A stretch of DNA of 49,547 bases from a virus, in the IMG/VR virus record IMGVR_UViG_3300025030_000025, positions 1-49,547 of that record; one strand, written 5' to 3'. The notes beneath the pieces are model-generated. The model saw only the letters and a program-made list of their open reading frames with translations, searched no databases and was not told where the DNA came from. The number at the start of each line of letters is the position of its first letter. Positions within the stretch are counted from its first letter, which is position 1. Position numbers and translations under genes: made by a program. This document shows positions 3,124 to 36,617 of the stretch, one piece after another.

Positions 3124-5361
3124 TTATACTAATTCTAAACTGGTGAGAACAGTATAACCAGTTCCGTTAATTGTTAAAGTACGCCCATAAGCATTTAACG
3201 TACCATCCGATAAAACAACTGTATCTACAAGTCCTTCTGTACCGATACTGACAACAGACTTCCCATTAAACGTATCGTATTCTGTCTTACTTATTAATCC
3301 AGCAGTTACACTTGCAGTTGCCGCCATTGGTATATTTAATGTATGGGTAGATGTCGCTGAACTAAACGCTGGCGCAGTACCACTTGTCCCAACAGCGAAT
3401 GTTTGTGTCGCCACAGTCAAACCACCTAAAGAAGTAATTGCGGCAGTTAAATATCTCCCATCAATATCTACCGTTACAGTACCAGCGTCTTGCTGGGTTA
3501 AAGTTATTATCCCATCACCAGTATTAAACGAAGCAGAAGCTATCATGTTGCTATAAGCCGCATCCCAATTAGAACGGCTACCGGAACCATAATCAGTTAC
3601 CCATTGTGCTGCACTATTCCAAGCAGAAGAATTATCCGTTATCGAAGTTCCCCAAGCACTACCAGTTGATAAAGCTATACCAGCACCTGGATAAACCATA
3701 GAGGCTGGCGCGCTCCAACTTAATATTCCGCCAGTTGCGTTTGAACAAGTTAATACTTGGTTTAATGTTGGAGCCACACTTGGAAATGAATAAGCAACAT
3801 TATTTACTTTAGTTATATTACCACTTGCATCTACATCAAATAAAGTATCAATTTCAAATCCACCTACTGCGAGTAATCTTCCACTACATTGTAATCCATC
3901 TGGGTTGGGTGTAGCACCTTGTACTGCCCCAAGAGACACACTCACGCCAAATCCCGTACTTTCCCAAGACATAATGGGAACTGTACTATTCCACACTTTC
4001 CATAAAAAGTCATCAACTCCGACAGCCCCAGCTTTATATAATATAATTTCATCTTGGTCTATATAAACCCCACCACTTGTAGAAGGTGTAGAATTACCTT
4101 TAATAGTAAACCCGATTAGTTCACCAGCTATAACTTGATTAGCGGCTACTGTGCTTGTATAAACTCCAGTGTTATCAATATAGGTTCCATTAGCACCCAC
4201 CCCATCCCAAGAAGCACCATTCCATCTCTTTAGTTGGTTTACTGTAACTGTAGTATCGAACCATAAATCACCAGGTAATGGAGAAGTTGGCGCAGTAGCA
4301 CTATAAAAACTTTCGACTTGTCTTTCACTAATATCAACCCATGCTGGAGTACCTATTGTTGCATCCCAACGATATAGTTTTTTAAGTGTAGTATTATACC
4401 ATAAATCTCCGTCTAAAGGTGAAGATGGAGCAGAAGAACTTCTCGTTGATATTATCCAATCTGCGCCAATAATATCACTACGACTGCCTATCTGCAACTT
4501 ACCTTTTAGATAAGCATTAGAAGTGTATAGCCCTATTTGGTCAGAACCATATAAAGCGGAAAAATCTGTATCATTTATTGTCCCAAGTAATCCAAGCTGT
4601 GCCGCTGGTACAGCATTAAAATAACCCGAATAAGTGCTTATAACAGTAAGAATCTTAATATAAGGTGCGAAGTTCCTATTCCCAGCACCTAAATCTCTTA
4701 CATCAGAAGTCATCATTACTATGACGCTTCCTCTGTCTGGATTTGTTGCAAGGTCATTATTCCCAAGCCTCACCAGCACATCACCAATTTCGAGAGAACC
4801 AATTTGAGCTGGTATATTGCCACCACTTTCAGAAGATTCTGTATAGGTGATAATATTGCCATTAACAGCAGTAACATCAAGTCTTAATTCTTTTACTACA
4901 GTAGCCCCATCCATATCAAATTTAGCAGTGTAAAGTAAATCTCCTACTTTGAAAGGGCTTAATAATGAATCATTAGAATTTTTAATTTCAAATTCAGTTT
5001 CATTAGCAAATACTACTATGCCGGAATCAGATAAAATTACTGCCCCATTTACAGTTCTGATACTTTGTGCATATACATTTTTAGCATAAAAATTATCTAC
5101 ATCTAATCTTTCAAAATGAGGATAAGGACGAGACTTTGCTGGTTTTTCAGTTAGAAAATCTTGAAAAGTAGTGTACCATCCTCTATCTCCTTTAACTTCA
5201 AGATATGCTTTGTCTCTATCATCGGAAGTTAAACGAATATCTCCACTTTTCCCTTGTCCACCATAGCCAACAGAACGCTCTGATGAATTGACGGCATCTA
5301 TAAGAACGTTAATTTCTCTGGACACTTCTTGAAAAGTTGTAAGATGTTTAGTGCTTTTCAT
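3124..5361 (-). CDS. Tail fibre or appendage protein, 745 aa
   Basis: The N-terminal region (1-110) starts with helix and strand content likely to dock on the tail. Near residues 305-395 there are two copies of a module reading GDLWYNTTLKKLYRWD and GDLWFDTTVTVNQLKRWN, a repeat common in phage fibre and appendage proteins. The rest is beta-rich, with many Ser, Thr, Gly and Ala and no Cys cluster, ending in a short beta segment. The start codon overlaps the stop of the upstream gene by 4 bp (ATGA). I infer receptor binding or a side appendage. No chaperone cleavage motif or depolymerase active site was seen. Confidence 0.75.
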   Translation of the reverse strand: MKSTKHLTTFQEVSREINVLIDAVNSSERSVGYGGQGKSGDIRLTSDDRDKAYLEVKGDRGWYTTFQDFLTEKPAKSRPYPHFERLDVDNFYAKNVYAQSIRTVNGAVILSDSGIVVFANETEFEIKNSNDSLLSPFKVGDLLYTAKFDMDGATVVKELRLDVTAVNGNIITYTESSESGGNIPAQIGSLEIGDVLVRLGNNDLATNPDRGSVIVMMTSDVRDLGAGNRNFAPYIKILTVISTYSGYFNAVPAAQLGLLGTINDTDFSALYGSDQIGLYTSNAYLKGKLQIGSRSDIIGADWIISTRSSSAPSSPLDGDLWYNTTLKKLYRWDATIGTPAWVDISERQVESFYSATAPTSPLPGDLWFDTTVTVNQLKRWNGASWDGVGANGTYIDNTGVYTSTVAANQVIAGELIGFTIKGNSTPSTSGGVYIDQDEIILYKAGAVGVDDFLWKVWNSTVPIMSWESTGFGVSVSLGAVQGATPNPDGLQCSGRLLAVGGFEIDTLFDVDASGNITKVNNVAYSFPSVAPTLNQVLTCSNATGGILSWSAPASMVYPGAGIALSTGSAWGTSITDNSSAWNSAAQWVTDYGSGSRSNWDAAYSNMIASASFNTGDGIITLTQQDAGTVTVDIDGRYLTAAITSLGGLTVATQTFAVGTSGTAPAFSSATSTHTLNIPMAATASVTAGLISKTEYDTFNGKSVVSIGTEGLVDTVVLSDGTLNAYGRTLTINGTGYTVLTSLELV

Positions 5362-7328
5362 AACTCGAAAAATTTCCTTAAAGTAATATCTAATGAATAT
5401 ACAGAATTACCATAACCAGTGGCTTCTGTTATTTTCACTTGTAATAGTTTACCTTCTTCATAATTTCCACCAGATTTAAATTCAGATGACGTCAAAGAAG
5501 TAGTTGGAGTAGCTCTATTCTTGCCATAAGTTATTGTCGGAGCCGCAGTTAATGCTGTGCTATCCATAGTCGGACGATAGAACACTTTGCTTAATGATGG
5601 ATTACCAAAATCCAGTACCTTAGAAACCCAATAGAATGCACGATAAGTTATACTTGAAGTCGCTATATTACCACTTAAAGCATCTAACATTGAAGAACCA
5701 GTGGCAACATAAGTTTCTCCAAATTTACCGACAAATGCACCAAATCCAGTAGAAGTATTGCCACATGCAGTAAATTGTAGCCAACTATCCCACCTTTGTT
5801 TCGTCACATGAAATGTCCAAACATTACTATAACTACCTGTATGGTCGGGTACTATAAACAAAATCAAATTTTTAAGTGAATGAAAAACAACTACTGGGGT
5901 TTTACTTTGTTCGCCTACTGTATAATTTTTAGCAAATCCAGTCCAATCATAAGTGGCAGTTACATCTGTTTTAATAGCATCGCCAATCGTCCTTATCTGC
6001 TCTCCATCATGCCAATAAGCATTTTTATAATCACACCAAAACATCCCATAATCAGTTATTACTATACTGCGCTGGGACAAACAGCCAACACCAACAGTTG
6101 TATCTTCGATATAGAATCCATCAGCATTAATGCGATAAGCATTATTCTCATCGAATGCCCATATCTTACCATTGAACGCTTTCCAAGCTGTAGGTATTGA
6201 TGGTAATTTTAAATAATCACGTGTCCAATCAAACATATCATAACGATATTGTTTAGAACGGAAAGCAAGAAAAGCAGATTCTGGCATCTCAGATTTGTAA
6301 CAACCAGCAACGTAATGGTAAGCATTTAAATCTGTATCTAACGAATAATAAACATCGGAAGTAGTAAGAGTTTCTGGAATACCAGTTTGTTCTTCATAAG
6401 AAGATAATATATCAGTATTATTATCTACATAATCTATGGTCTTATGTGCACCGGATGTCGCCCAAGATATATTAGCACCAGTTCTGTCAACATATCCAAC
6501 CGCACTTGTAACATCTATTGACTGTTGCAATCTCCATAAAGTAGAGTCAGATAAAGAAACCTTACCATAAGTTTCATATCTACGATATATTTTGATACCA
6601 GTTACTCGTGCGTTTAGGTTGGCAATCGTATTTAAAGTTACTGTAAGAGTAAGATAATCAAAATCTTGTCCATGAGCTGGAATAGAATAACTTGCAGTAG
6701 AATTACCAATAGGGCTTTCTTGTATTCCATCATATACTAAAGATATATTATAATAATATTTTTTACTGGAATCGAAAGTAGTAGAACCATTATGCCCTAC
6801 TATATCTATGTCGAAAGTAGCGGAATGGTCAGTAGAATAAGTGGGTCTTGATATGCCAGCATTCCCATATTGCCAAGATTTACTTGCACCACCAAAATGT
6901 CCATAATCACAATTTCCTATCCAAGTGGGAGTAGTTGGGACACCAGTGGTCGTTCCATTAGCTACTCTTACTTCTTCATTATGAACTACCATAGAAGTTG
7001 CTGTTGATGCTATCGCAGTTGCACCAAAATTAGATGCCGGAGAAGCCGCATAAAAATCAGTTACTATATTCAGATAACCAGCATCAGCATAAACTAAATT
7101 CCATTTAGAATCTTTAGTTTTAATCCAATCAAATAATCTGCCAGCGGTAGCGGTAGTCGTACCCATAGTTTTAGCAGTAGAAGTAGGTATAGCTTTTAAT
7201 ATTCCTTCAGCGGCGTCAGCATCTATATTGTTAGAATCTGATGCAGCATTATCAGGAATATCTTCTGAATCTGCTCGTTTAATAATTCCTTTGTCAAAAC
7301 TGACAATAGAAAATCTTTCTTGTGACAT
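5358..7328 (-). CDS. Tail hub/stabilisation protein, P22 gp10-like, 656 aa
   Basis: The N-terminus has FDKGIIKRADSEDIPDNAAS followed by SNNIDADAAEG, a layout seen in the long beta-rich tail proteins of P22-type podoviruses that follow the head-tail adaptor. The rest is beta-rich with many aromatic residues, as expected for beta-propeller-like hub proteins. I chose the ATG at 7328 over an in-frame TTG six bases upstream; it follows the stop of the adaptor gene by 2 bp. Gene order (portal, scaffold, coat, adaptor, this gene, fibre) supports the call. The family match is from remembered patterns and was not searched. Confidence 0.7.
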   Translation of the reverse strand: MSQERFSIVSFDKGIIKRADSEDIPDNAASDSNNIDADAAEGILKAIPTSTAKTMGTTTATAGRLFDWIKTKDSKWNLVYADAGYLNIVTDFYAASPASNFGATAIASTATSMVVHNEEVRVANGTTTGVPTTPTWIGNCDYGHFGGASKSWQYGNAGISRPTYSTDHSATFDIDIVGHNGSTTFDSSKKYYYNISLVYDGIQESPIGNSTASYSIPAHGQDFDYLTLTVTLNTIANLNARVTGIKIYRRYETYGKVSLSDSTLWRLQQSIDVTSAVGYVDRTGANISWATSGAHKTIDYVDNNTDILSSYEEQTGIPETLTTSDVYYSLDTDLNAYHYVAGCYKSEMPESAFLAFRSKQYRYDMFDWTRDYLKLPSIPTAWKAFNGKIWAFDENNAYRINADGFYIEDTTVGVGCLSQRSIVITDYGMFWCDYKNAYWHDGEQIRTIGDAIKTDVTATYDWTGFAKNYTVGEQSKTPVVVFHSLKNLILFIVPDHTGSYSNVWTFHVTKQRWDSWLQFTACGNTSTGFGAFVGKFGETYVATGSSMLDALSGNIATSSITYRAFYWVSKVLDFGNPSLSKVFYRPTMDSTALTAAPTITYGKNRATPTTSLTSSEFKSGGNYEEGKLLQVKITEATGYGNSVYSLDITLRKFFEL

Positions 7329-21519: not shown

Positions 21520-21786
21520 ATGGCAAAGAAAAGCACAAGCACTTTAACCAGTGCGAAGAAAACTGTAAAAAAGACTGAAAAAGTTGAAACTGTTTCAGTT
21601 AAATTACAATTACCTGGTCAACTTGCTGAAACAGCAAAGGTAAGACCAACTGTCGCAGAATTAATTGAAGACAGAAATCTTGCTAAGTATGAAGTTTCTG
21701 TTAATGGACAAAAAGTTGCAGCTGACTATAAGTTCGCTAAGAACGACATAGTTCGTGTTGGTATTCCAACTAAATCTGCTAACTAA
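21520..21786 (+). CDS. Ubiquitin-like beta-grasp protein, 88 aa
   Basis: After a lysine-rich flexible N-terminus (1-25), VSVKLQLPGQLAETAKV starts a ThiS/MoaD-like beta-grasp: a strand, a helix near TVAELIEDRN, then YEVSVNGQKVAADYKF and NDIVRVGIPTKS. The C-terminus is TKSAN, not GG. Together with the E1-like protein at 23459 and the JAMM protease at 24220 this fits a ubiquitin-like modifier set. The modifier may need trimming or another end chemistry. Fold assignment is by pattern, not by search. Confidence 0.7.
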   Translation: MAKKSTSTLTSAKKTVKKTEKVETVSVKLQLPGQLAETAKVRPTVAELIEDRNLAKYEVSVNGQKVAADYKFAKNDIVRVGIPTKSAN

Positions 21787-21799
21787 TTTCTGCAATTCA

Positions 21800-21834
21800 C
21801 GGAGATAATCAGTAAAATGGTTATCTCCCGTTTT
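21800..21834 (+). terminator. Weak terminator/attenuator after the Ubl gene
   Basis: GGAGATAA at 21801-21808 pairs with TTATCTCC at 21821-21828, followed by CG and TTTT. It lies between the Ubl and zinc-ribbon genes and could make more Ubl than downstream products. Confidence 0.55.
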
Positions 21835-21855
21835 ATATGCAAAACGGAGAGAGAA

Positions 21856-23457
21856 ATGAAAATTGAAACATTCCAATATGAAATTAAATTTCGTATTGTG
21901 ATGATTTTAAATCAGATAACGAAAGAATCTCCATCAGCAATTAGAAAAAATCTATCAAATATTTATGAATACGCATATTTATCAGATGCGAAATATTTGT
22001 TGATGGAAGGATTCACTAACTACGAATTATCGAATGAAATTTTTTATAAAGATGATGTAGCTTATATTGCCAACCATTCAGAAAAGTTAGTTATTGACGC
22101 TTATCTACTTGTTACTGGACGTGGAAGTGAAATTAAAGATGTGCGTAAATGGCTTGAAGATAGAGAACACATATTTAGAGATATTGATTATCGAGTGTCG
22201 CAGATAAGAAATACAGAATATGAAATTTATAAAAATATCCAGAAAATATCGTCTTATATTCCATTTAGTTGGGAATCAGCTATTAAAATAGCCAAACAAA
22301 TGAAAATTAAATGTTATCATAAAGATTCTGCTGCTGATACATTATCATTCGAACTTGGTAAAATTAAATGCGGTGATGATGAAGAAGGATATATCAATTA
22401 TCAGAATATAATCATCGAACTAAATAAAAAGATGAAGTTATGCAATATTATATACCATTTTAATAAATGGAAATATAATGTTCAATGGGGTTGGTTTGAA
22501 GATCGGCTACATCCTCATGTGGATAATACACATCTATGCGAAGGCAATAGACAAGAAGATATGATTATCTACCGGATGCAGTCTGACTGGGGATTTTTAT
22601 TATCAACTTATCGTGAATGTTTCGCAAGTTATGATTCAACATCAACTTATGCTAAAATTAAAGAAATTGCACCGATATTACGTGGCATGGCTAAAATAGC
22701 AGATGATATAGAATATCCAGAAGATATATCTGATTCGGATTTATCTTATAAAATATTCAAAAAAATGCAAGCGCAAAAGAGAAGATGCAGAACATGTGAT
22801 AATATATATTATGGAGAAGAATGTGATAGAGAAAATTGTATTGGAAATCCATTGACTAAAAAATTATGCGCACATTGTGATAGAGAAATGACTTGGAAAT
22901 CTCATTTACATCGAATAACTTGCGATAACTGTTACCATTGCCCACATTGCGAAGTTATTTCTCCTAATTCTACCGAGTGTTTAAATATTGCATGCAGTAA
23001 ATGCAAAAATTATGTAACAAGATGCGAATATTGTTATGGCATTAAATCTTATATTGGTGGACAATTATATTGTGATAATCCTAAATGCAAAAATCATAAA
23101 GATTATATTACCCCAATAGCACCAATCAGTGAATCTCCAGTATGCTTGATATGTCATAATAATAATTTAAGACAAAATGGTTCATTAGAATGGTGGTGTG
23201 ATAATGGGAATCATTCAATTAGCCAATATGATAAATACGGCGCACCAGTAGGACGTAATTATCATTATTTTAATTATTTGCGTGGTTTTCTGGGTGAAAT
23301 TCGTTTAGAACGGGTGCAGCAGATATCTGGATACGAAGGAGTCCCAATCCCAGTATATGGGGAGAATAATAAATTAATAGGTATCAAATGTGGAGAAGAA
23401 GTAATTGCATCAATAGAGTATATTGAAGAAGATAAACCAACAATAAACTGGAGATAA
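21856..23457 (+). CDS. Multi-zinc-ribbon protein in the Ubl operon, 533 aa
   Basis: Starts at ATG behind GGAGAGAGAA (MKIETFQYEIKF); the longer in-frame start at 21817 lies in the hairpin region. The N-terminal 300 residues are helical, with no motif known to me. Residues about 310-450 have at least four Cys sets: CRTCD/CDRENC, CAHCD/CDNCYHCPHC, CSKCK/CEYC and CLICH/CDNGNH. The order is zinc ribbons with Cys/His knuckles, and the C-terminus is beta-rich. Lying between Ubl and E1-like genes it may act as an E2/E3-like factor or target adaptor. That is inference; no RING is certain. Confidence 0.75.
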   Translation: MKIETFQYEIKFRIVMILNQITKESPSAIRKNLSNIYEYAYLSDAKYLLMEGFTNYELSNEIFYKDDVAYIANHSEKLVIDAYLLVTGRGSEIKDVRKWLEDREHIFRDIDYRVSQIRNTEYEIYKNIQKISSYIPFSWESAIKIAKQMKIKCYHKDSAADTLSFELGKIKCGDDEEGYINYQNIIIELNKKMKLCNIIYHFNKWKYNVQWGWFEDRLHPHVDNTHLCEGNRQEDMIIYRMQSDWGFLLSTYRECFASYDSTSTYAKIKEIAPILRGMAKIADDIEYPEDISDSDLSYKIFKKMQAQKRRCRTCDNIYYGEECDRENCIGNPLTKKLCAHCDREMTWKSHLHRITCDNCYHCPHCEVISPNSTECLNIACSKCKNYVTRCEYCYGIKSYIGGQLYCDNPKCKNHKDYITPIAPISESPVCLICHNNNLRQNGSLEWWCDNGNHSISQYDKYGAPVGRNYHYFNYLRGFLGEIRLERVQQISGYEGVPIPVYGENNKLIGIKCGEEVIASIEYIEEDKPTINWR

Positions 23458-23458
23458 A

Positions 23459-24220
23459 ATGAAAAAAATAATTGCTGACCATTGGCGTGGTCTTGATTTT
23501 TACTCACCTAAACTGGACAAAAATCCACATGTTATCATAGTCGGGTGTGGTGCTATTGGAAGTTATACTGCATTTGGCTTAGCACGTTTAGGTGTAAAGA
23601 AATTAACATTAATTGATTTTGATACAGTTGAAGGGCATAACTTACCAAATCAATTTTTTGCTGAATCATTAAATATACCAACTGGCATGTTTAAAGTGTC
23701 TGTTCTTGCTTCTACGATTAAGCTAATCGTACCATCAGTTGAAATAATTACTATCCCAATGAAGTTCGAACAAGTAGATGTAAAAACATTATATCCGGCT
23801 TCAGCTATTATTACTACTGTAGATTGTATGGAAGTTAGAAAAAATATCTATGCTTCAGTTAAAGATTCGGGTCTGCTATTGCTCGATGCTCGTATTGGTG
23901 GATTATTCGCTAACATATATGATATCCCGTTGTCAAATCCAAAAGCATCAGAATATTATAAATCCAGTCTTTATTCTAATGGTACTGTCCAAGCATTACC
24001 TTGTACTGGTCAAAGTGTTTGTGATGTTAGTATGACGGTAGCTGGTGAACTTGTAGGACGTTACAGAAATTTTGCTATGGGAAAACAATATCCTTCTTTC
24101 CACACGTTCCATGATTATAAAATTGGGCAAATGTGGATTCAAGAACTAAATCCAGATTTTAGCATCGAGGATAATCCTTTTACTACAGATGCAGAATCAT
24201 TAGCGAAAGTAGGCATGTAA
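23459..24220 (+). CDS. E1-like ThiF/MoeB-fold adenylyltransferase, 253 aa
   Basis: The nucleotide loop GCGAIG is at residues 29-34, followed by LIDFDTVEGHN (D53, D55). The R of the usual NLxRQ motif is replaced (NLPNQFF). K79 follows in GMFKV, and D122 lies in TTVDC. C182 in ALPCTGQSV is the best candidate catalytic cysteine, as in phage ThiF proteins with PCT motifs. Smaller than eukaryotic E1 and lacking an extra domain. Starts 1 bp after the previous stop behind GGAGAT. It would adenylate the Ubl C-terminus. Confidence 0.85.
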   Translation: MKKIIADHWRGLDFYSPKLDKNPHVIIVGCGAIGSYTAFGLARLGVKKLTLIDFDTVEGHNLPNQFFAESLNIPTGMFKVSVLASTIKLIVPSVEIITIPMKFEQVDVKTLYPASAIITTVDCMEVRKNIYASVKDSGLLLLDARIGGLFANIYDIPLSNPKASEYYKSSLYSNGTVQALPCTGQSVCDVSMTVAGELVGRYRNFAMGKQYPSFHTFHDYKIGQMWIQELNPDFSIEDNPFTTDAESLAKVGM

Positions 24221-25200
24221 TGACTAAAATACAAATGCCAATAGATGCTGGAGTTTTATTTGGTATGTACCAATATGCTGGCTATGCTAAACATTTCCAT
24301 AAATCTGAAATAGCTGGCTGGGCACATTATAGTCAAAATAGAGGCATCTACAAATTAGCACCATTAGTTGAACAAGAAATTACTGCAGCAACTGCCGATA
24401 CTTCAAGCGCATCAATTATTAATGATGTTGAATACGATATATCCGATATGATTGTACATTGGCATTCTCATGTTGATATGATGCCATCACCTTCTTCGAC
24501 TGATTTAGAGCAGATAAAAGATACGCTTGGATTGTTTCCTATGTTAATTTCCATTATAGTAAACTGTAAAAACCAGTATTCTGCAAGATTAGATGTTAAT
24601 TCTATTGGCAATAAAAAATGTTTTTATAAATTGCCTATCGCAGAAACTTATGAAGTTGAACTTGTGCCTTATTATAATGATAAGGTAGTAGCCAAAGAAA
24701 TACAGAAAAAACTAAAGAAACCGAAACAACCGCTTGTACCAGTAGCATATAAATATACTGGTGCCTATTATTACAATGGGCGTTCAGAAGATTTTGTTGG
24801 TGAATTATTTGATATAGTGGATTATATACCACCAACGGATAAAAAGGAAACCATTTCTTCAACAGTATCAGAAATAGAAAAAGAATTAAAACTGCAAGAC
24901 CAGTTTGATGCTCTTGCGGCATTGGACGAATTGGCAAAACTGAATGGAGTTATGAAAACTTATTTCCCTTCTGGAAATGAAAAAAGCATAAAAGGATTTT
25001 TGGTAACTGGTAAAACTGCACCTTACACTTTAGCAGTGAGATTCCTTAATGAAGTTAAAGGCGATAAAGCTATTATTTTCAGATTTAATGGAGAAGAAAT
25101 ATCACCATTAGAGGGTGTTGGAAAAGTAGCTTTAATGTTAAAACAATATAGAGATATAACAGAAAACGAATATGATAGAATTGTAACTTTATTAGGCTAA
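24220..25200 (+). CDS. JAMM/JAB metalloprotease with C-terminal extension, 326 aa
   Basis: The JAMM motif is intact: E30 in HKSEIAGWAHY, then H82 and H84 in HWHSHVDMMPSPSSTD, with S92 and D95 (HxH-x7-SxxD). Such enzymes cleave ubiquitin-like proteins from targets or trim their ends. Residues 200-326 form a charged helical extension with a possible second domain. The gene overlaps the E1-like gene by one base (TAATG), implying coupling. Possible roles are deconjugation or Ubl processing. Confidence 0.85.
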   Translation: MTKIQMPIDAGVLFGMYQYAGYAKHFHKSEIAGWAHYSQNRGIYKLAPLVEQEITAATADTSSASIINDVEYDISDMIVHWHSHVDMMPSPSSTDLEQIKDTLGLFPMLISIIVNCKNQYSARLDVNSIGNKKCFYKLPIAETYEVELVPYYNDKVVAKEIQKKLKKPKQPLVPVAYKYTGAYYYNGRSEDFVGELFDIVDYIPPTDKKETISSTVSEIEKELKLQDQFDALAALDELAKLNGVMKTYFPSGNEKSIKGFLVTGKTAPYTLAVRFLNEVKGDKAIIFRFNGEEISPLEGVGKVALMLKQYRDITENEYDRIVTLLG

Positions 25201-25205
25201 ATGAT

Positions 25206-25400
25206 ATGATAAAAATAATTCAAATACTTAGCAATGGTTCTGCCCGTCTTATTGATGAAGATGGATTAATTGAATCAGTAGATTTAGTTAAACCACTAAT
25301 TGACAAACTGAAAGAAGAAAGGAGGATAGATGAAAAAACAGTAATAAATTCAACACTTGGTTTTGACGTACCAATTACAAGTTGGTACAGTCTTTTGTGA
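25206..25400 (+). CDS. Small protein at the end of the Ubl operon, 64 aa
   Basis: MIKIIQILSNGSARLIDEDGLI begins a short alpha/beta protein with no known motif. It follows the JAMM gene by 5 bp. It might be a small accessory to the Ubl system. No family recognised. Confidence 0.5.
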   Translation: MIKIIQILSNGSARLIDEDGLIESVDLVKPLIDKLKEERRIDEKTVINSTLGFDVPITSWYSLL

Positions 25401-32415: not shown

Positions 32416-32604
32416 TTATAACAGCGCGGCGCATAAGCAGTTGCGGTAACAACAATTTAACAAAATAGGAGATAAATATTATGGGATATGCCGAAGAACA
32501 AATTAAAGACTATATGGATAATTTAGACCAAAATTATGCCGAACATTACGAAAAAGAAAACTTGCCAGAAGATGAAAGCAATCTGCTTGATGCGCAAGTT
32601 ATAA
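32416..32604. repeat. attC1
   Basis: Left core TTATAAC at 32416, 2L AGCGCGGCGCATAAGCAG, 2R CTGCTTGATGCGC with T and G unpaired, right core GTTATAA at 32598. The long loop contains AGGAG and the ATG of the next ORF. Confidence 0.8.
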
Positions 32605-32861
32605 AGTTGCTTGCGGACAGGCATATAAATATTATTGAATTAAAACATCTTATGAATAAAGTTAAGCGTGTTAAAATAAAAGATGACCTTGAACGAATAC
32701 TAATAAAAGATTTGGGCGAAAGTTACGACAGAATTGAAGATAAAAATTTTATAAACAAATATGCTGGTAAAATAGCGAACATTTATGAGTGGTGCGGGGA
32801 TTGGTGGATATTAGAAGATGACAATTATATTATTACAGAAAATTGCTTTGCGAAAATTTAG
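32481..32861 (+). CDS. Cassette 2 ORF, 126 aa
   Basis: ATG lies in the attC1 loop behind AGGAGATAAATATT. The first 39 residues (acidic, ending QVIKLL at the 1R core) are coded by attC DNA; the rest is alpha/beta with WCGDWWILEDDNYII near the end. The 1R core is in frame (GTT = Val). The ends pair: GTTATAAAGTTGCTTGC at 32598 with 32861-32878, one base different in length. Function unknown. Confidence 0.65.
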   Translation: MGYAEEQIKDYMDNLDQNYAEHYEKENLPEDESNLLDAQVIKLLADRHINIIELKHLMNKVKRVKIKDDLERILIKDLGESYDRIEDKNFINKYAGKIANIYEWCGDWWILEDDNYIITENCFAKI

Positions 32862-32871
32862 CAAGCAATCT

Positions 32872-33004
32872 TTATAACAGAGTGGCTGGTAACTTGCCGA
32901 GCGTAAATTTTATAAATAAAAATAAGGATTAAGAACTATGAGTGAAGAAAAAACCCAAATTGACCGAGCGAGTAGCGAGGTCAATGTTGACCAGCAAGTT
33001 AGGC
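32872..33004. repeat. attC2
   Basis: Left core TTATAAC; 2L GCTGGTAACTTG pairs with 2R CAATGTTGACCAGC with T and G unpaired; right core GTTAGGC at 32998. The loop holds a GACCGAGCGAG/CGAGGTC hairpin motif and the next ATG. Confidence 0.8.
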
Positions 33005-33270
33005 GGAAATTTCTTCCGGGTGATTGGATAAGTATGTTCTATGGATTTGACAGAGAAATATTTTATGTGCTGAAATATAATTCCGAAACCGGGATCGTTA
33101 TTATTGGTAATCCGAAATGGTGCGTAAGCGATTCTAAAACGATAGGGATAGAAGAACTACTTAGTAGAAAAGCAAAATATGTTTGTAGCACACGGCGGAA
33201 CATTTTGAGATATATATTTTTCCCGGTGAGGAATTTGATATGCCCGTTTTATAAACCATTTTCCGCCTAA
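32938..33270 (+). CDS. Cassette 3 ORF, 110 aa
   Basis: ATG in the attC2 loop. The first 20 residues (MSEEKTQIDRASSEVNVDQQ) come from attC; the core begins VRRKFLPGDWISMFYGF, a beta-barrel-like opening with PGDW. The stop TAA is part of the GCCTAAC core at 33265. The ends pair over 12 bases (GTTAGGCGGAAA with TTTCCGCCTAAC). No named family. Confidence 0.65.
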   Translation: MSEEKTQIDRASSEVNVDQQVRRKFLPGDWISMFYGFDREIFYVLKYNSETGIVIIGNPKWCVSDSKTIGIEELLSRKAKYVCSTRRNILRYIFFPVRNLICPFYKPFSA

Positions 33271-33457
33271 CGGTGCGGTTTTTAACAAGCCGCGACAAAA
33301 CAAAATAAGGAATTAGAGTTATGAAACCAGAAATTTTATTAGCAACACAAAGAGCAATGGAAGAATATTATTCCGATCCTCAATTGATGAACGACATGAC
33401 GGTTGAACAACATATAGCTGATTGTATTAGCGGTCTTGTTGAAAAACTTAGTTATGC
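33265..33457. repeat. attC3
   Basis: Left core GCCTAAC; 2L GGTTTTTAACAAGCCGC pairs with 2R GCGGTCTTGTTGAAAAAC with T and G unpaired; right core GTTATGC at 33451. Confidence 0.8.
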
Positions 33458-33653
33458 AAGCCCAGCTTCATCGGGCGTCCAAAACGGCGGACAATATATA
33501 CCTAACTTGAAAAATATTTGGCAAGTAAGACAGATAAAATGCGGTAATGATAATATAACAATGATAGTGGACACCACAACACCTAATGATGAAATTTGGT
33601 TTGTTGATGCAGATGGACATACACAAAAATTTAAGATGACCCAAACACCATAG
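33321..33653 (+). CDS. Cassette 4 ORF, 110 aa
   Basis: ATG in the attC3 loop behind AAGGAATTAGAGTT. About the first 43 residues precede the 1R core, which is in another frame here (TAT). The core has NIWQVRQIKCGNDNITMIVD, beta-rich. The cassette ends pair with an extra 20-nt stem-loop (AGCCC ... GGGCG) inserted beside 1R. Function unknown. Confidence 0.6.
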   Translation: MKPEILLATQRAMEEYYSDPQLMNDMTVEQHIADCISGLVEKLSYASPASSGVQNGGQYIPNLKNIWQVRQIKCGNDNITMIVDTTTPNDEIWFVDADGHTQKFKMTQTP

Positions 33654-33663
33654 CCGTTTTGGT

Positions 33664-33868
33664 GTATAACGGATCAGCGACAACCCGCCGAGCGGGAATG
33701 TAAACTAAAATAGGAATTGAGAAATGAACGAAGGAATATTAAAATTTATTTGTGCGATTACTGGACATGACGAAGTAACAATTAAACAAATGTTCAACGA
33801 TTGGTTAAAATCCCCTTCATCAAAGACCGACCGAGCAAGTGAGGACGGAGTTGGTTGCGTAGTTAGTT
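33664..33868. repeat. attC4
   Basis: Left core GTATAAC; 2L GCGACAACCCGCC pairs with 2R GGACGGAGTTGGTTGCG, with A and G unpaired and G-T pairs; right core GTTAGTT at 33862. The loop holds GACCGAGCAAGTGAGG. Confidence 0.7.
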
Positions 33869-34047
33869 TGCCGAGCAAAGGAAATAAGTGTTGCGAACTT
33901 TGTAAACATTGTAAGGTTGATAATGATATTACTTCTGCATCAAGAGGCGATCACCTTTGTTTTAACAGCAAATCTGATTGCTACTATTTAGGCGAGTTAA
34001 GAAATATAAAGTCTTTTTATTGTTCTGAATTTGCGAGGTCAAACTAA
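33724..34047 (+). CDS. Cassette 5 ORF, Cys-rich, 107 aa
   Basis: ATG in the attC4 loop. The first 46 residues come from attC, then VSLPSKGNKCCELCKHCKVD starts a Cys-rich domain with CCELCKHC, C near LCFNSKSDC and YCSEF, likely zinc binding. The stop TAA lies in AACTAAC. It resembles cassette 9 in Cys spacing (CxxC early, CC..C later). The shared layout suggests related cassettes. Function unknown. Confidence 0.65.
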   Translation: MNEGILKFICAITGHDEVTIKQMFNDWLKSPSSKTDRASEDGVGCVVSLPSKGNKCCELCKHCKVDNDITSASRGDHLCFNSKSDCYYLGELRNIKSFYCSEFARSN

Positions 34048-34243
34048 CGTAGTTGCGTTTGTGCCGTTGCGGAAACATTTTATAAAACTAAATAGGAGTA
34101 GAAAATGGATATTGGAATTTTATTTGCCAAATACTGCGATGTGAAAGATTTACAAGAACCACATCAAAACGCATTGAGCCAAGATGCTTTAGTGAAATTA
34201 ATTGAAGAATATGAAAGCAATCGGCACGAAACGCGAGTTAGCC
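34042..34243. repeat. attC5
   Basis: Left core AACTAAC; 2L GTAGTTGCGTTTGTGCCGTTG pairs with 2R CAATCGGCACGAAACGC with T and G unpaired six bases apart; right core GTTAGCC at 34237. The clearest of the set. Confidence 0.85.
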
Positions 34244-34473
34244 AGAAAAATGCACCAGGGGGTGGGACACAATTATATTTTATCAGTTATAGTTTCTGGC
34301 AATATACTTATGACGATAGCAAACTTGAAGGGGACACAGTGGAAGGTTTTGAGAATACCGTTGAAGATTGCCATATAGAACGATTTGAGGACGTTGAAGC
34401 GTTAGAAGATAAATTGAGAAAACGGTTAGGATATGACGGACTGACCATAATTAATTACATTAAAATTAACTAA
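34105..34473 (+). CDS. Cassette 6 ORF, 122 aa
   Basis: ATG in the attC5 loop behind AGGAGTAGAAA. The first 44 residues are attC-coded; the core begins VSQKNAPGGGTQLYFISYSF and goes on with WQYTYDDSKLEGD, alpha/beta and acidic. The cassette ends pair (GTTAGCCAGAAAAATGC with 34474-34491). The 1R core is in frame. Function unknown. Confidence 0.65.
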   Translation: MDIGILFAKYCDVKDLQEPHQNALSQDALVKLIEEYESNRHETRVSQKNAPGGGTQLYFISYSFWQYTYDDSKLEGDTVEGFENTVEDCHIERFEDVEALEDKLRKRLGYDGLTIINYIKIN

Positions 34474-34484
34474 GCATTTTTTCG

Positions 34485-34617
34485 GGCTAACGAAGTTGCC
34501 ACTAAACTGCAAACGGACATAAAAGGAAGAACTATTATGGAAAATAATTCAGAGACTACTAATAAAACTCAAATTGCAACAAACGAAAGTTTGTCAGATT
34601 TGAGTGGCTTGTTAGCT
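34485..34617. repeat. attC6
   Basis: Left core GGCTAAC; 2L GCCACTAAACTGCAAAC pairs with 2R GTTTGTCAGATTTGAGTGGC with T, A and G unpaired; right core GTTAGCT at 34611. Confidence 0.8.
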
Positions 34618-34908
34618 GGCGACCGTATTTGGTTTGATGAAGAAAAAAGACCATATACGATTAAAGCAGCGAACAAGCGATTTAAGGTTTGCACAAAACC
34701 ATACAACATTAAACACACTGTAATTTATACAATCGTTGACTTGGACAGACAGATTAGAGGAACTGAAAACTTAGTTTTTTGTATGGGGTTTGAGAACATA
34801 AAGTTATGCAAAGAAGCATTAAAAAGATTAGAGAATGGCGAAAGCGAAGTGAGCAGTAGGAATAATATCCCATTAAAAATATCTAAAACGGAAAGGTCGT
34901 CCAGCTAA
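34537..34908 (+). CDS. Cassette 7 ORF, widespread small family, 123 aa
   Basis: The core after 1R reads AGDRIWFDEEKRPYTIKAAN, CTKPYNIKHTVIYTIVDLD and RGTENLVFCMGF, which resembles a small uncharacterised family I remember from phages and other mobile DNA. Such proteins normally begin near GDRIWF, so the first 24 residues (MENNSETTNKTQIATNESLS...) are an extension coded by the attC loop. The ends pair (GTTAGCTGGCGACC with GGTCGTCCAGCTAAC). The stop TAA lies in AGCTAAC. Confidence 0.7.
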   Translation: MENNSETTNKTQIATNESLSDLSGLLAGDRIWFDEEKRPYTIKAANKRFKVCTKPYNIKHTVIYTIVDLDRQIRGTENLVFCMGFENIKLCKEALKRLENGESEVSSRNNIPLKISKTERSSS

Positions 34909-35095
34909 CGGTGTGGCGTTTCACCGGATTGCGAAAACAAAAAAAATATAAGAAGGAAAATAAAATGGGAAATGTGAATAAAATTTTAGTTGATATAATA
35001 AATAACATTGACAAATACGAGAAGCCATTTATAGCAGAACAATTATTTGTCGTCGTGAGAGAACTCAGCAATTCCGGTGCAAACGTATGTTATAG
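34903..35095. repeat. attC7
   Basis: Left core AGCTAAC; 2L GTGGCGTTTCACCGGATTGC pairs with 2R GCAATTCCGGTGCAAACG with T and C unpaired; right core GTTATAG at 35089. Confidence 0.8.
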
Positions 35096-35354
35096 CGAGG
35101 GCGCAGTTCAGCCCGGTGCGGTTGCGGAAGAGAAGTTAATTTTTGATTGGAAAGAGGGCGAGTTGATAAGCGGAGACCCATTATTTTATTTGGATGATTG
35201 TCATGGAGTATCGGTGGACAATTATGTTGACCACATAGATATTAAATTTTATCAACGCATAAAAGAGAATGGGAAAACTTATTGCCGGGTTACAAAAAAA
35301 CATACTCTTGATGTAGCCAAATTAGCAGAGGCACTTAAACTTTTAGAAGAATGA
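34965..35354 (+). CDS. Cassette 8 ORF, 129 aa
   Basis: I start at the ATG at 34965 (MGNVNKILVD), behind AGAAGGAAAATAAA; an in-frame ATG at 34911 lies inside the 2L arm. About 42 residues precede 1R. The core EEKLIFDWKEGELISGDPLF is followed by a beta-rich domain and a helical end (LDVAKLAEALKLLEE). The ends pair (GTTATAGCGA with TCGCTATAAC). Function unknown. Confidence 0.65.
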   Translation: MGNVNKILVDIINNIDKYEKPFIAEQLFVVVRELSNSGANVCYSEGAVQPGAVAEEKLIFDWKEGELISGDPLFYLDDCHGVSVDNYVDHIDIKFYQRIKENGKTYCRVTKKHTLDVAKLAEALKLLEE

Positions 35355-35368
35355 CAGCAACCGCATCG

Positions 35369-35622
35369 CTATAACGAAGCTCCGGCTTACCCGCCGAGCG
35401 ACATTAAAAACTAAAATAGGAATTGGAAAATGAACGCACAAAAAATAGTTGATCATGCAATAAAGAAAGGTTACTTGGTTGAGTGCTGCGGTGGATGTGG
35501 CAAAACATATAAAGCGGATTACGATTGTGGTTGCCCCGCTGGTTCAAGTTATAAATGGAATCCAAATTTGATTTTTTTGCCGACCGAGCAAGCGAGGTCG
35601 GTTGTAGAGCCGGAAGTTAAAC
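35369..35622. repeat. attC8
   Basis: Left core CTATAAC; 2L CTCCGGCTTACCC pairs with 2R GGTTGTAGAGCCGG with extra unpaired bases, including a G; right core GTTAAAC at 35616. The loop holds a GACCGAGCAAGCGAGGTC stem. Confidence 0.7.
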
Positions 35623-35807
35623 CGACTTGCGTAAATTGTTTCTATGCAACCACTATAAAGAATGATGACGTAATTTCTTCTATATGCCATTGTCAGATAA
35701 GTCCTATTTGTTGGATGCAAGAAAAAGAAATTAAATACGGAATACCTATTACCAGAATGCGAGAATGCGATGGATGCAATCATTTTAAGAAAGCAAGTTC
35801 GGTTTAA
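35430..35807 (+). CDS. Cassette 9 ORF, Cys-rich, 125 aa
   Basis: The attC-coded part itself has CCGGCGKTY and CGCPAG, so this N-terminal zinc-ribbon-like piece spans the loop. After 1R, VKPTCVNCFYATTIKND, CHCQISPICWM and MRECDGCNHF give a second Cys-rich domain, like cassette 5. The stop TAA is in GTTTAAC. The ends pair (GTTAAACCGACTTGC with 35793-35808, one base longer). Probably two zinc sites; function unknown. Confidence 0.65.
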   Translation: MNAQKIVDHAIKKGYLVECCGGCGKTYKADYDCGCPAGSSYKWNPNLIFLPTEQARSVVEPEVKPTCVNCFYATTIKNDDVISSICHCQISPICWMQEKEIKYGIPITRMRECDGCNHFKKASSV

Positions 35808-36000
35808 CATATAGCGGGCTAACTTGTCTGCGGAAAGGATATTATGAGTTTTGCAATACATAAAAAACTTGGCACAATAAAAGAAATACCAAAACACGCA
35901 GAGGGATGGATGAATAACGAATGGGCTGTATATGACAAATTTCCCACAGAAGAAAATTATTTTGAGGCAATAGCAGGTCAAGTTGAGCCCGTAGTTATTG
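35802..36000. repeat. attC9
   Basis: Left core GTTTAAC; 2L CGGGCTAACTTGTCTG pairs with 2R CAGGTCAAGTTGAGCCCG with T and G unpaired six bases apart; right core GTTATTG at 35994. Confidence 0.8.
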
Positions 36001-36179
36001 TGAAAACGGCGGGGAGGACATTATTAGACTACGCAAAATCGTGGGCTCAAAGATATAATAAGGATGGTAAAGAAAAGGAAGAATTAAAGATAAGTTTTGT
36101 AATAATAGCTAAACATCTATTCGCTTTAACCGATAAAGAATTATTAAGGTTAAAACACAATAGCCGTTTTTCAGAATAA
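35844..36179 (+). CDS. Cassette 10 ORF, 111 aa
   Basis: ATG behind GAAAGGATATT in the attC9 loop. The first 50 residues contain AEGWMNNEWAVYDKFPTEEN; after 1R the core VIVKTAGRTLLDYAKSWAQR is a helical region. The stop TAA is in GAATAAC. The ends pair (GTTATTGTGAAAACGG with 36164-36180, one mismatch and one bulge). Function unknown. Confidence 0.65.
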   Translation: MSFAIHKKLGTIKEIPKHAEGWMNNEWAVYDKFPTEENYFEAIAGQVEPVVIVKTAGRTLLDYAKSWAQRYNKDGKEKEELKISFVIIAKHLFALTDKELLRLKHNSRFSE

Positions 36180-36426
36180 CAGAGTGGCGGTTGTGCTTTT
36201 GCGGAACAGTTTTATAATAACAAATAGAGGTTTAACATGACACACGAAGATTTTGAAGAAATACTTAATTGTAGCGAATGTAGCACTGCTTTAACTGATA
36301 ATGATTGGAGCGAAACTTATTCGGTTCCTCTTTCAATGACAATTAAAGAGATAAAGAGTTTGAGCCAAACATTAAAAACACATGAAACGTTGCTTAACAG
36401 CAACAAGCACGAACCGCAAGTTAAAC
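36174..36426. repeat. attC10
   Basis: Left core GAATAAC; 2L GGCGGTTGTGCTTTTGC pairs with 2R GCAACAAGCACGAACCGC with C and G unpaired six bases apart; right core GTTAAAC at 36420. Confidence 0.8.
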
Positions 36427-36617
36427 GGATTTTGGCGGATGTGGAGAACCAAAAAACAATATTGAAACTATTTAGTTGCCAATGTGGCGAAACTTTACTG
36501 ATAGGCAAACCACATACTAAAATTGTTAATAACCATAATGAACTTGATTACCTTGAATGTAAATGCCCCGATTGCGAGATGGGGTGGAAAGTAAAAATAA
36601 GTTTTACGGAAATATAA
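36237..36617 (+). CDS. Cassette 11 ORF, zinc-ribbon, 126 aa
   Basis: ATG in the attC10 loop. The N-terminal 61 residues include CSECSTALTDND; after 1R (VKRILADVENQK) the C-terminus has CQCGETLLIGK and CKCPDCEMGWK, so a split zinc ribbon is likely. The ends pair over 17-18 bases (36420-36436 with 36618-36635). It is the last cassette, and the array stops at GTTTAAC. Function unknown. Confidence 0.65.
   Translation: MTHEDFEEILNCSECSTALTDNDWSETYSVPLSMTIKEIKSLSQTLKTHETLLNSNKHEPQVKRILADVENQKTILKLFSCQCGETLLIGKPHTKIVNNHNELDYLECKCPDCEMGWKVKISFTEI

Follow-up and report, generated by a model that had tools for sequence, protein, structure and literature searches.

Four adjacent genes of a tailed phage probably encode a reversible ubiquitin-like protein-conjugation pathway of the phage's own, with a modifier, an E1-like enzyme, an E2-like protein that carries zinc ribbons and a JAMM protease. 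The genes lie in a 49,547-nt virus record of IMG/VR (IMGVR_UViG_3300025030_000025), the whole of which is called the window here. It encodes a P22-like portal (5.5e-39), an ERF protein and DnaB, and has terminase-like matches in many phages, which identify it as a tailed phage. In bacteria, conjugation of this kind has mostly been described as a defence against phages. A full pathway carried by phages, if true, reverses this picture, with the tagging used by the virus.

The cassette consists of four plus-strand open reading frames at 21520-25200, in the order ubiquitin-like modifier (Ubl), E2-like zinc-ribbon protein, E1 and JAMM (Table 1). A single nucleotide separates the stop codon of the E2-like gene from the start of the E1 gene, and the E1 and JAMM genes overlap (TAATG). 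The preliminary description of this DNA had placed a tight operon of four genes here, and its coordinates, residue counts, C182 and H82/H84 all proved correct. The 533 residues that it gave for the zinc-ribbon protein hold with the likely ATG at 21856, behind ACGGAG; the longest ORF starts at 21817 and has 546 aa. When IMG/VR was searched with the E1, 15 distinct loci were obtained on contigs of 13-175 kb, most of them with recognisable Ubl, E2-like and JAMM neighbours. Two of these relatives, L002 and L003, keep the gene order of the window, with E1s that are 53% and 43% identical to its own, respectively, showing that the cassette is not due to chance. A terminator-like hairpin follows the Ubl gene in the window, and different but equivalent hairpins are found 3' of the Ubl stop codon in L002, there with a T run, and in L003, which suggests that the modifier would be more abundant than the enzymes. 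In L003, an additional ORF of 104 aa (5990-6304) sits between the Ubl and E2-like genes. Elsewhere in the window, a row of ORFs of 107-147 aa at 32481-36617 was considered as a set of paralogues, and discarded as such since they are not similar to each other.

Table 1. Features of the cassette and its 3' flank, in window coordinates.
Feature	Position	Strand	Remarks
Ubl modifier, 88 aa	21520..21786	+	Basic N-terminal tail and beta-grasp domain; C-terminus GIPTKSAN
Terminator/attenuator-like hairpin	21801..21828	+	Between the Ubl and E2-like genes
E2-like protein with C-terminal zinc ribbons, 533 aa	21856..23457	+	Operon position and motif in homologues; profile matches to E2s; AF2/VIA
Putative E2 active site, HPHVDNTHLC	22510..22539	+	Candidate catalytic Cys228 (Cys241 in 546-aa numbering)
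About five zinc ribbons (8 CxxC pairs)	22786..23214	+	Read directly from sequence
E1-like (ThiF fold) activating enzyme, 253 aa	23459..24220	+	Pfam ThiF 4.5e-25
Candidate catalytic C182 of E1 (PCT cysteine)	24002-24004	+	
JAMM/MPN+ metalloprotease, 326 aa	24220..25200	+	Prok-JAB 4.1e-7; also a C-terminal region beyond JAMM
64-aa ORF	25206..25400	+	Directly 3' of JAMM; without family; no counterpart noted in L002; cassette membership doubtful

Searched alone, the window Ubl gave nothing significant in Pfam, PHROGs, NCBIfam or PADLOC. A family profile of this protein and the relatives' modifiers matched SAMP2 (3e-8), PF1061 (5e-8), ubiquitin entries and MoaD (1e-5). Some designed repeat proteins were also among the matches, and the fold is therefore better evidence than the profile. 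The AlphaFold (AF2) model (13 sequences, pLDDT 85) matched ubiquitin, SUMO, ISG15 and MoaD with a Foldseek probability of 1.00, and VIA aligned it with ThiS and TtuB at Z 8.3. Judged from profile and model, which agree with the beta-grasp Ubl first described, the window modifier is a genuine ubiquitin/ThiS-type beta-grasp protein.

The modifiers of most relatives end in a Gly-containing motif, often GG, and a short tail. GG-type ends are MKGG-K, VKGG-R, IKGG-TL, VSGG-C, VQGG, VEGG-AR and ASGG (a hyphen precedes the tail); other Gly-containing ends are LKGA-R, MKAG-LVA, LKHG-R and IKQG-KK. Such ends have the form that a JAMM protease would process. C-terminal Gly is absent from the clade of the window, where the Ubls read ..PTKSAN (window), ..KTKNN (L002) and ..KTKNA (L003); going by these sequences, the modifier of this clade has lost its glycines.

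The key residues of the E1-like enzyme are R10, GxGxxG at 29-34, D53/D55, N61/N64/Q65, K79, D122 and the candidate catalytic C182. All of these, with G29, G31 and G34 standing for the GxGxxG motif, are invariant over eight E1 sequences at 27-53% identity, and the ThiF match together with C182 confirms the earlier reading of a ThiF protein with a PCT cysteine. The best solved matches of the E1 profile were UBA5, UBA7 and UBA6 (8e-20 to 6e-19), all protein-conjugating E1s; ThiF and MoeB ranked lower and MccB was also among the matches. Membership of the ThiF family, together with a Ubl model that matches ThiS, TtuB and MoaD as well as ubiquitin, would also suit a sulphur-carrier relay, in which the E1 makes a thiocarboxylate of a ThiS/MoaD-like Ubl to serve tRNA thiolation or the making of a small sulphur compound. 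We consider this improbable because neither the cassette nor its neighbours, in the window or in the relatives examined, showed a recognisable rhodanese, desulfurase, ThiG, MoaE or TtuA, because the set includes a conserved E2-like protein and a conserved JAMM protease, and because the terminal glycine is gone from the Ubl of the window clade. The E1 sequence, moreover, has no paired CxxC zinc site, which also speaks against a sulphur carrier. An Asn-terminated modifier raises one more alternative, MccB-like peptide chemistry: the E1 would adenylate the Asn with which the Ubl ends (..SAN, ..KNN), giving a modified peptide or nucleotide adduct and not a protein conjugate. The MccB substrate ends in Asn. 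Asn is likewise the last residue in the Ubls of two of three close relatives, and MccB figures in the E1 profile matches; however, the L003 Ubl ends in Ala, those of most relatives end in a Gly-containing motif, and there is no place in such chemistry for E2-like and JAMM partners, so that we give it hardly any credence.

The third enzyme of the proposed conjugation pathway, the JAMM protease, is intact, as had been stated. Its residues E30, H82, S83, H84, S92 and D95 (the Glu...HxH...S..D zinc site) are invariant in nine homologues, and RPN11, COP9 subunit 5 (CSN5) and JAMM1 are the best matches of its profile. In Flavobacterium phage Fpv2 (L028, 2689-4978), the JAMM gene is interrupted by an endonuclease gene (3205-3954, minus strand), which is consistent with an intron or homing element.

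The large zinc protein had been noted to sit where an E2 or E3 would be expected. Its position was borne out, but an E2-like domain (HPHV...C-x-G, with a model that resembles E2s) had been overlooked. Direct searches with the 546-aa protein were empty, both as a DNA-pattern scan and by tblastn in phages, so homologues were reached by way of the E1. At the equivalent operon position, relatives encode proteins of 213-892 aa which have little in common besides a motif, HPH[IVM]-x(n)-C-[WLYEM]-G, behind which come helices and a second motif resembling S-Y-N-x-x-D. The second His, the Cys and the following Gly are invariant in 20/20 divergent homologues, and in relatives from metagenome-assembled genomes (MAGs) the motif reads HPHVSSDGVPCWGN, close to the HPN..G.ICL of E2s. 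No Pfam family was found for any of the 20 proteins, and the window protein gave nothing significant against PHROGs, NCBIfam or PADLOC.

A blind search of the PDB with a profile of the E2-like cores returned mostly E2s among the named matches, at sub-threshold E-values (UBE2A 0.05, archaeal UBC 0.11, UBE2D2 0.11). In the alignments, HPHV..C fell on HPN..C and the Cys on the catalytic Cys. When the active-site motif was masked in the profile, the E2 matches were gone; what the sequence supports by itself is therefore a common active-site motif, and nothing beyond it. For the core of the window protein, an AlphaFold model (14 sequences, pLDDT 80, pTM 0.74) gave weak Foldseek matches, the best (0.065) to a UEV domain. 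Upon re-alignment with VIA, the best 50 rows were all E2 or UEV proteins, mostly over 100-125 residues, with Z scores of 7.0-5.7, the top value of Z 7 falling below the comfort level of Z 8 set by the tool itself. The missing family match, the loss of E2 matches upon masking and the middling fold scores could also be read as signs of a zinc protein unrelated to E2s, in which HPH..C arose by chance, conjugation then depending on the E1 only as in archaeal SAMP systems. This is rather unlikely, given that 20 proteins otherwise little alike carry the invariant motif at the equivalent operon position and that the 50 best structural rows are made up entirely of E2/UEV. Taking motif, position and fold together, we conclude that the zinc-ribbon protein is likely to be an E2, with some five zinc ribbons fused to it. 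The E2-like proteins of crAss-like phages have HSH in place of HPH, which makes the assignment more tentative in that branch, and show no significant alignment with the other E2-like proteins. A 797-aa protein encoded at L009 (6246-8639) combines a YYHSHRG..DYCFGN motif with an E1-like domain at its C-terminus, and may represent a phage protein in which E2 and E1 are naturally fused.

Past residue 228, the window E2-like protein contains 22 Cys, with 8 CxxC. A RING finger was rejected for this Cys-rich region, which is covered by three sequences only: by eye, it consists of consecutive C-x2-C...C-x2-C/C-x4-C ribbons and does not follow the C3HC4 order. Cys-rich C-termini are also found behind the E2 core in L002, L003, L010, L020, L021, L023 and L029, and are absent from L004, L005, L007, L015 and L039-L041. 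On this distribution, the ribbons are an optional module that was repeatedly attached, which would fit a substrate-binding or E3-like role.

All together, the gene set and its order, the invariant catalytic residues and the Ubl fold support well the phage-coded conjugation block of the preliminary description. In the pathway that we propose, the JAMM protease would trim the tail of the modifier where one is present, and the E1-like enzyme would spend ATP to activate the modifier C-terminus. Cys228 of the E2-like enzyme would then receive the modifier, via C182 or straight from the adenylate, and the ribbons fused to this enzyme would bring or orient the substrate in place of an E3. Later, the JAMM protease would take the modifier off its targets. 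We infer the E2 activity, the thioester relay, the E3-like role of the ribbons and the choice of targets.

The set recurs across phages. All four genes were found in L002, L003, L004, L005, L007 and more. Incomplete sets also occur, with no JAMM beside the E1 in L029 and no separate E2 in L008; relatives of the exonuclease adjacent to the window cassette (L033-L035) were found without E1, and may be fragments. Four contigs from bacterial or CPR MAGs (L039-L042) have E2-like, JAMM, E1 and Ubl-like ORFs near each other, and at least some of these contigs may be prophage. More beta-grasp-like ORFs, which show apparent repeats, lie 3' of the E1 on two of the CPR/MAG contigs (L039, 6757-7758; L040, 5208-5801 and 6651-7238).

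The crAss E2-like protein has matches in 74 records of named phages (29 from Bacteroides, 29 from Flavobacterium, 12 uncultured, and others). In crAss001 the order is gp79 (Ubl, KKIKSG-AM), gp78 (E2-like, YMHSHV...C-x-G), gp77 (JAMM) and gp76 (E1), genes annotated only as metalloprotease and thiamine biosynthesis. The set is also present in DAC15, other crAss-like phages and Flavobacterium phages, and the crAss-like phages of the Steigviridae retain it widely; the catalytic residues are invariant across the crAss/Flavobacterium sets compared. The Xanthomonas jumbo phage PhiXhv-12 encodes a Ubl (..ASGG), an E2-like protein of 892 aa whose tail is Cys-rich, and an E1, with no JAMM seen in the stretch examined. 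Many other phages thus carry the four-gene set without its having been recognised, among them gut crAss-like phages that are grown in the laboratory. A review of jumbo phages (PMC7824862) makes no mention of JAB, ThiF or Ubl, its two occurrences of 'ubiquitin' concerning eukaryotic viruses and a reference, and two crAss papers (PMC7886860, PMC10172136) contain neither 'ubiquitin' nor any of the genes sought; subscription papers or preprints could still describe phage versions.

In the loci examined, the set is located among genes of DNA replication, repair and nucleotide metabolism, and not among recognised counter-defence genes. The neighbours in the window are a pyrimidine-dimer glycosylase, a PolB-type exonuclease, ERF and DnaB; the first of these, a member of the DNA glycosylase family PF03013 (20770-21237, 1.4e-21), lies just upstream of the cassette. 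The crAss001 set is flanked by a primase and a uracil-DNA glycosylase, the PhiXhv-12 set has topoisomerases nearby, and L015 an Mre11-like phosphoesterase and a Rad50-type ATPase; the neighbours include a ribonucleotide reductase in L004 and a DHH protein in L008. Such neighbours are a lead and not a test that the pathway acts near replication or repair. From this setting, our tentative guess is that phage or host proteins of DNA metabolism are the likeliest substrates. The broadest proposal is more speculative and, on present evidence, somewhat unlikely: a ubiquitin/SUMO-like code borne by viruses (private modifier, E1, E2 with a zinc-ribbon substrate reader, deconjugase) and shared by tailed phages that are not related to one another (crAss-like, Flavobacterium, Xanthomonas jumbo, podovirus-like), which would regulate replication and repair proteins during infection, one clade conjugating through a non-glycine C-terminus.

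The same surroundings bear on a role in counter-defence, which the preliminary description had put forward, beside the tagging of host proteins, as something that the set could do. Bacteria use such systems against phages (PMC10097602; Bil and Bub as cited in PMC13373217). A phage JAMM could cut host conjugates, stripping the tags of Bil, CBASS type II or Bub, or the set could compete for E1/E2 partners. A JAMM serving that purpose would not, however, need an E1, an E2 and a Ubl of its own, and a setting of replication and repair genes with wide retention in Steigviridae crAss-like phages is more housekeeping-like than expected of a patchy anti-defence gene. We thus regard counter-defence as unlikely, and retain a conjugation pathway of the phage itself.

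Bil (BilA-BilB-BilC-BilD) is a four-part operon of Ubl, E2, E1 and JAMM. All four are encoded together here as well, the E2 by motif and model. Bil is a bacterial antiphage defence, whereas the present set is carried by a tailed-phage genome, its putative E2 fused to zinc ribbons and its Ubl without terminal Gly. With PADLOC 2023, the window set gave generic E1-E2/JAB matches only, and no defence family of PADLOC or NCBIfam matched the Ubl or the E2-like protein. Archaeal SAMP/UbaA/JAMM1 is another relation, SAMP2 being among the best matches of the Ubl profile and JAMM1 among those of the JAMM profile; an E2 is not known from the SAMP system in its usual description. The E1 and JAB domains of CBASS type II (Cap2/Cap3) and 6A-MBL are distantly related to those of the window. 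Their E2 and E1 form one fused protein, whereas these are separate ORFs here; in CBASS as described, the CD-NTase is tagged by its own C-terminus, whereas the block contains no CD-NTase or MBL gene.

Besides Bil, the architecture is closest to the operons that Iyer et al. 2006 (PMC1779556) classed as type 6d (PRTRC), which likewise combine a Ubl, a JAB, a ThiF-type E1 and an E2-like protein. The window-family and PRTRC E1s are related (hhalign 7.6e-14). Membership of PRTRC was nevertheless rejected: the PRTRC ThiF model scored 25.1 bits against a curated cut-off of 144.75, and the E2s share no profile similarity (E=0.43 versus PRTRC B). The 6d E2-like proteins have no upstream His (PMC1779556) and carry a His after the Cys, whereas the upstream HPH is conserved here. 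That study linked phages only to tail-assembly Ubl and JAB domains (PMC1779556). The lambda/T1 proteins TAPI/TAPK share these two domains with our set; they lie in tail operons without E1/E2 (PMC1779556), whereas the present genes form part of a replication/repair block.

Direct testing is possible since the set occurs in cultured phages: the Bacteroides phages crAss001 and DAC15 and the Flavobacterium Fpv phages, where the genes are labelled 'metalloprotease' or 'thiamine biosynthesis', or are unannotated. With the pathway would come a putative E2 family with zinc ribbons built in, recognised by none of the libraries searched, which would bear on how E2/E3 systems arose.

Variant arrangements of the modifier gene were seen in two phages. 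One (L010) has two Ubl genes in tandem (5030-5612), and its JAMM and E2-like proteins have additional Cys-rich N-terminal regions. In crAss-like phage cr106_1 (L045, 2687-3890), an annotated HNH endonuclease directly follows the KKIKSG processing point of the Ubl ORF, and what is left of the tail may lie in the ORF that comes next.
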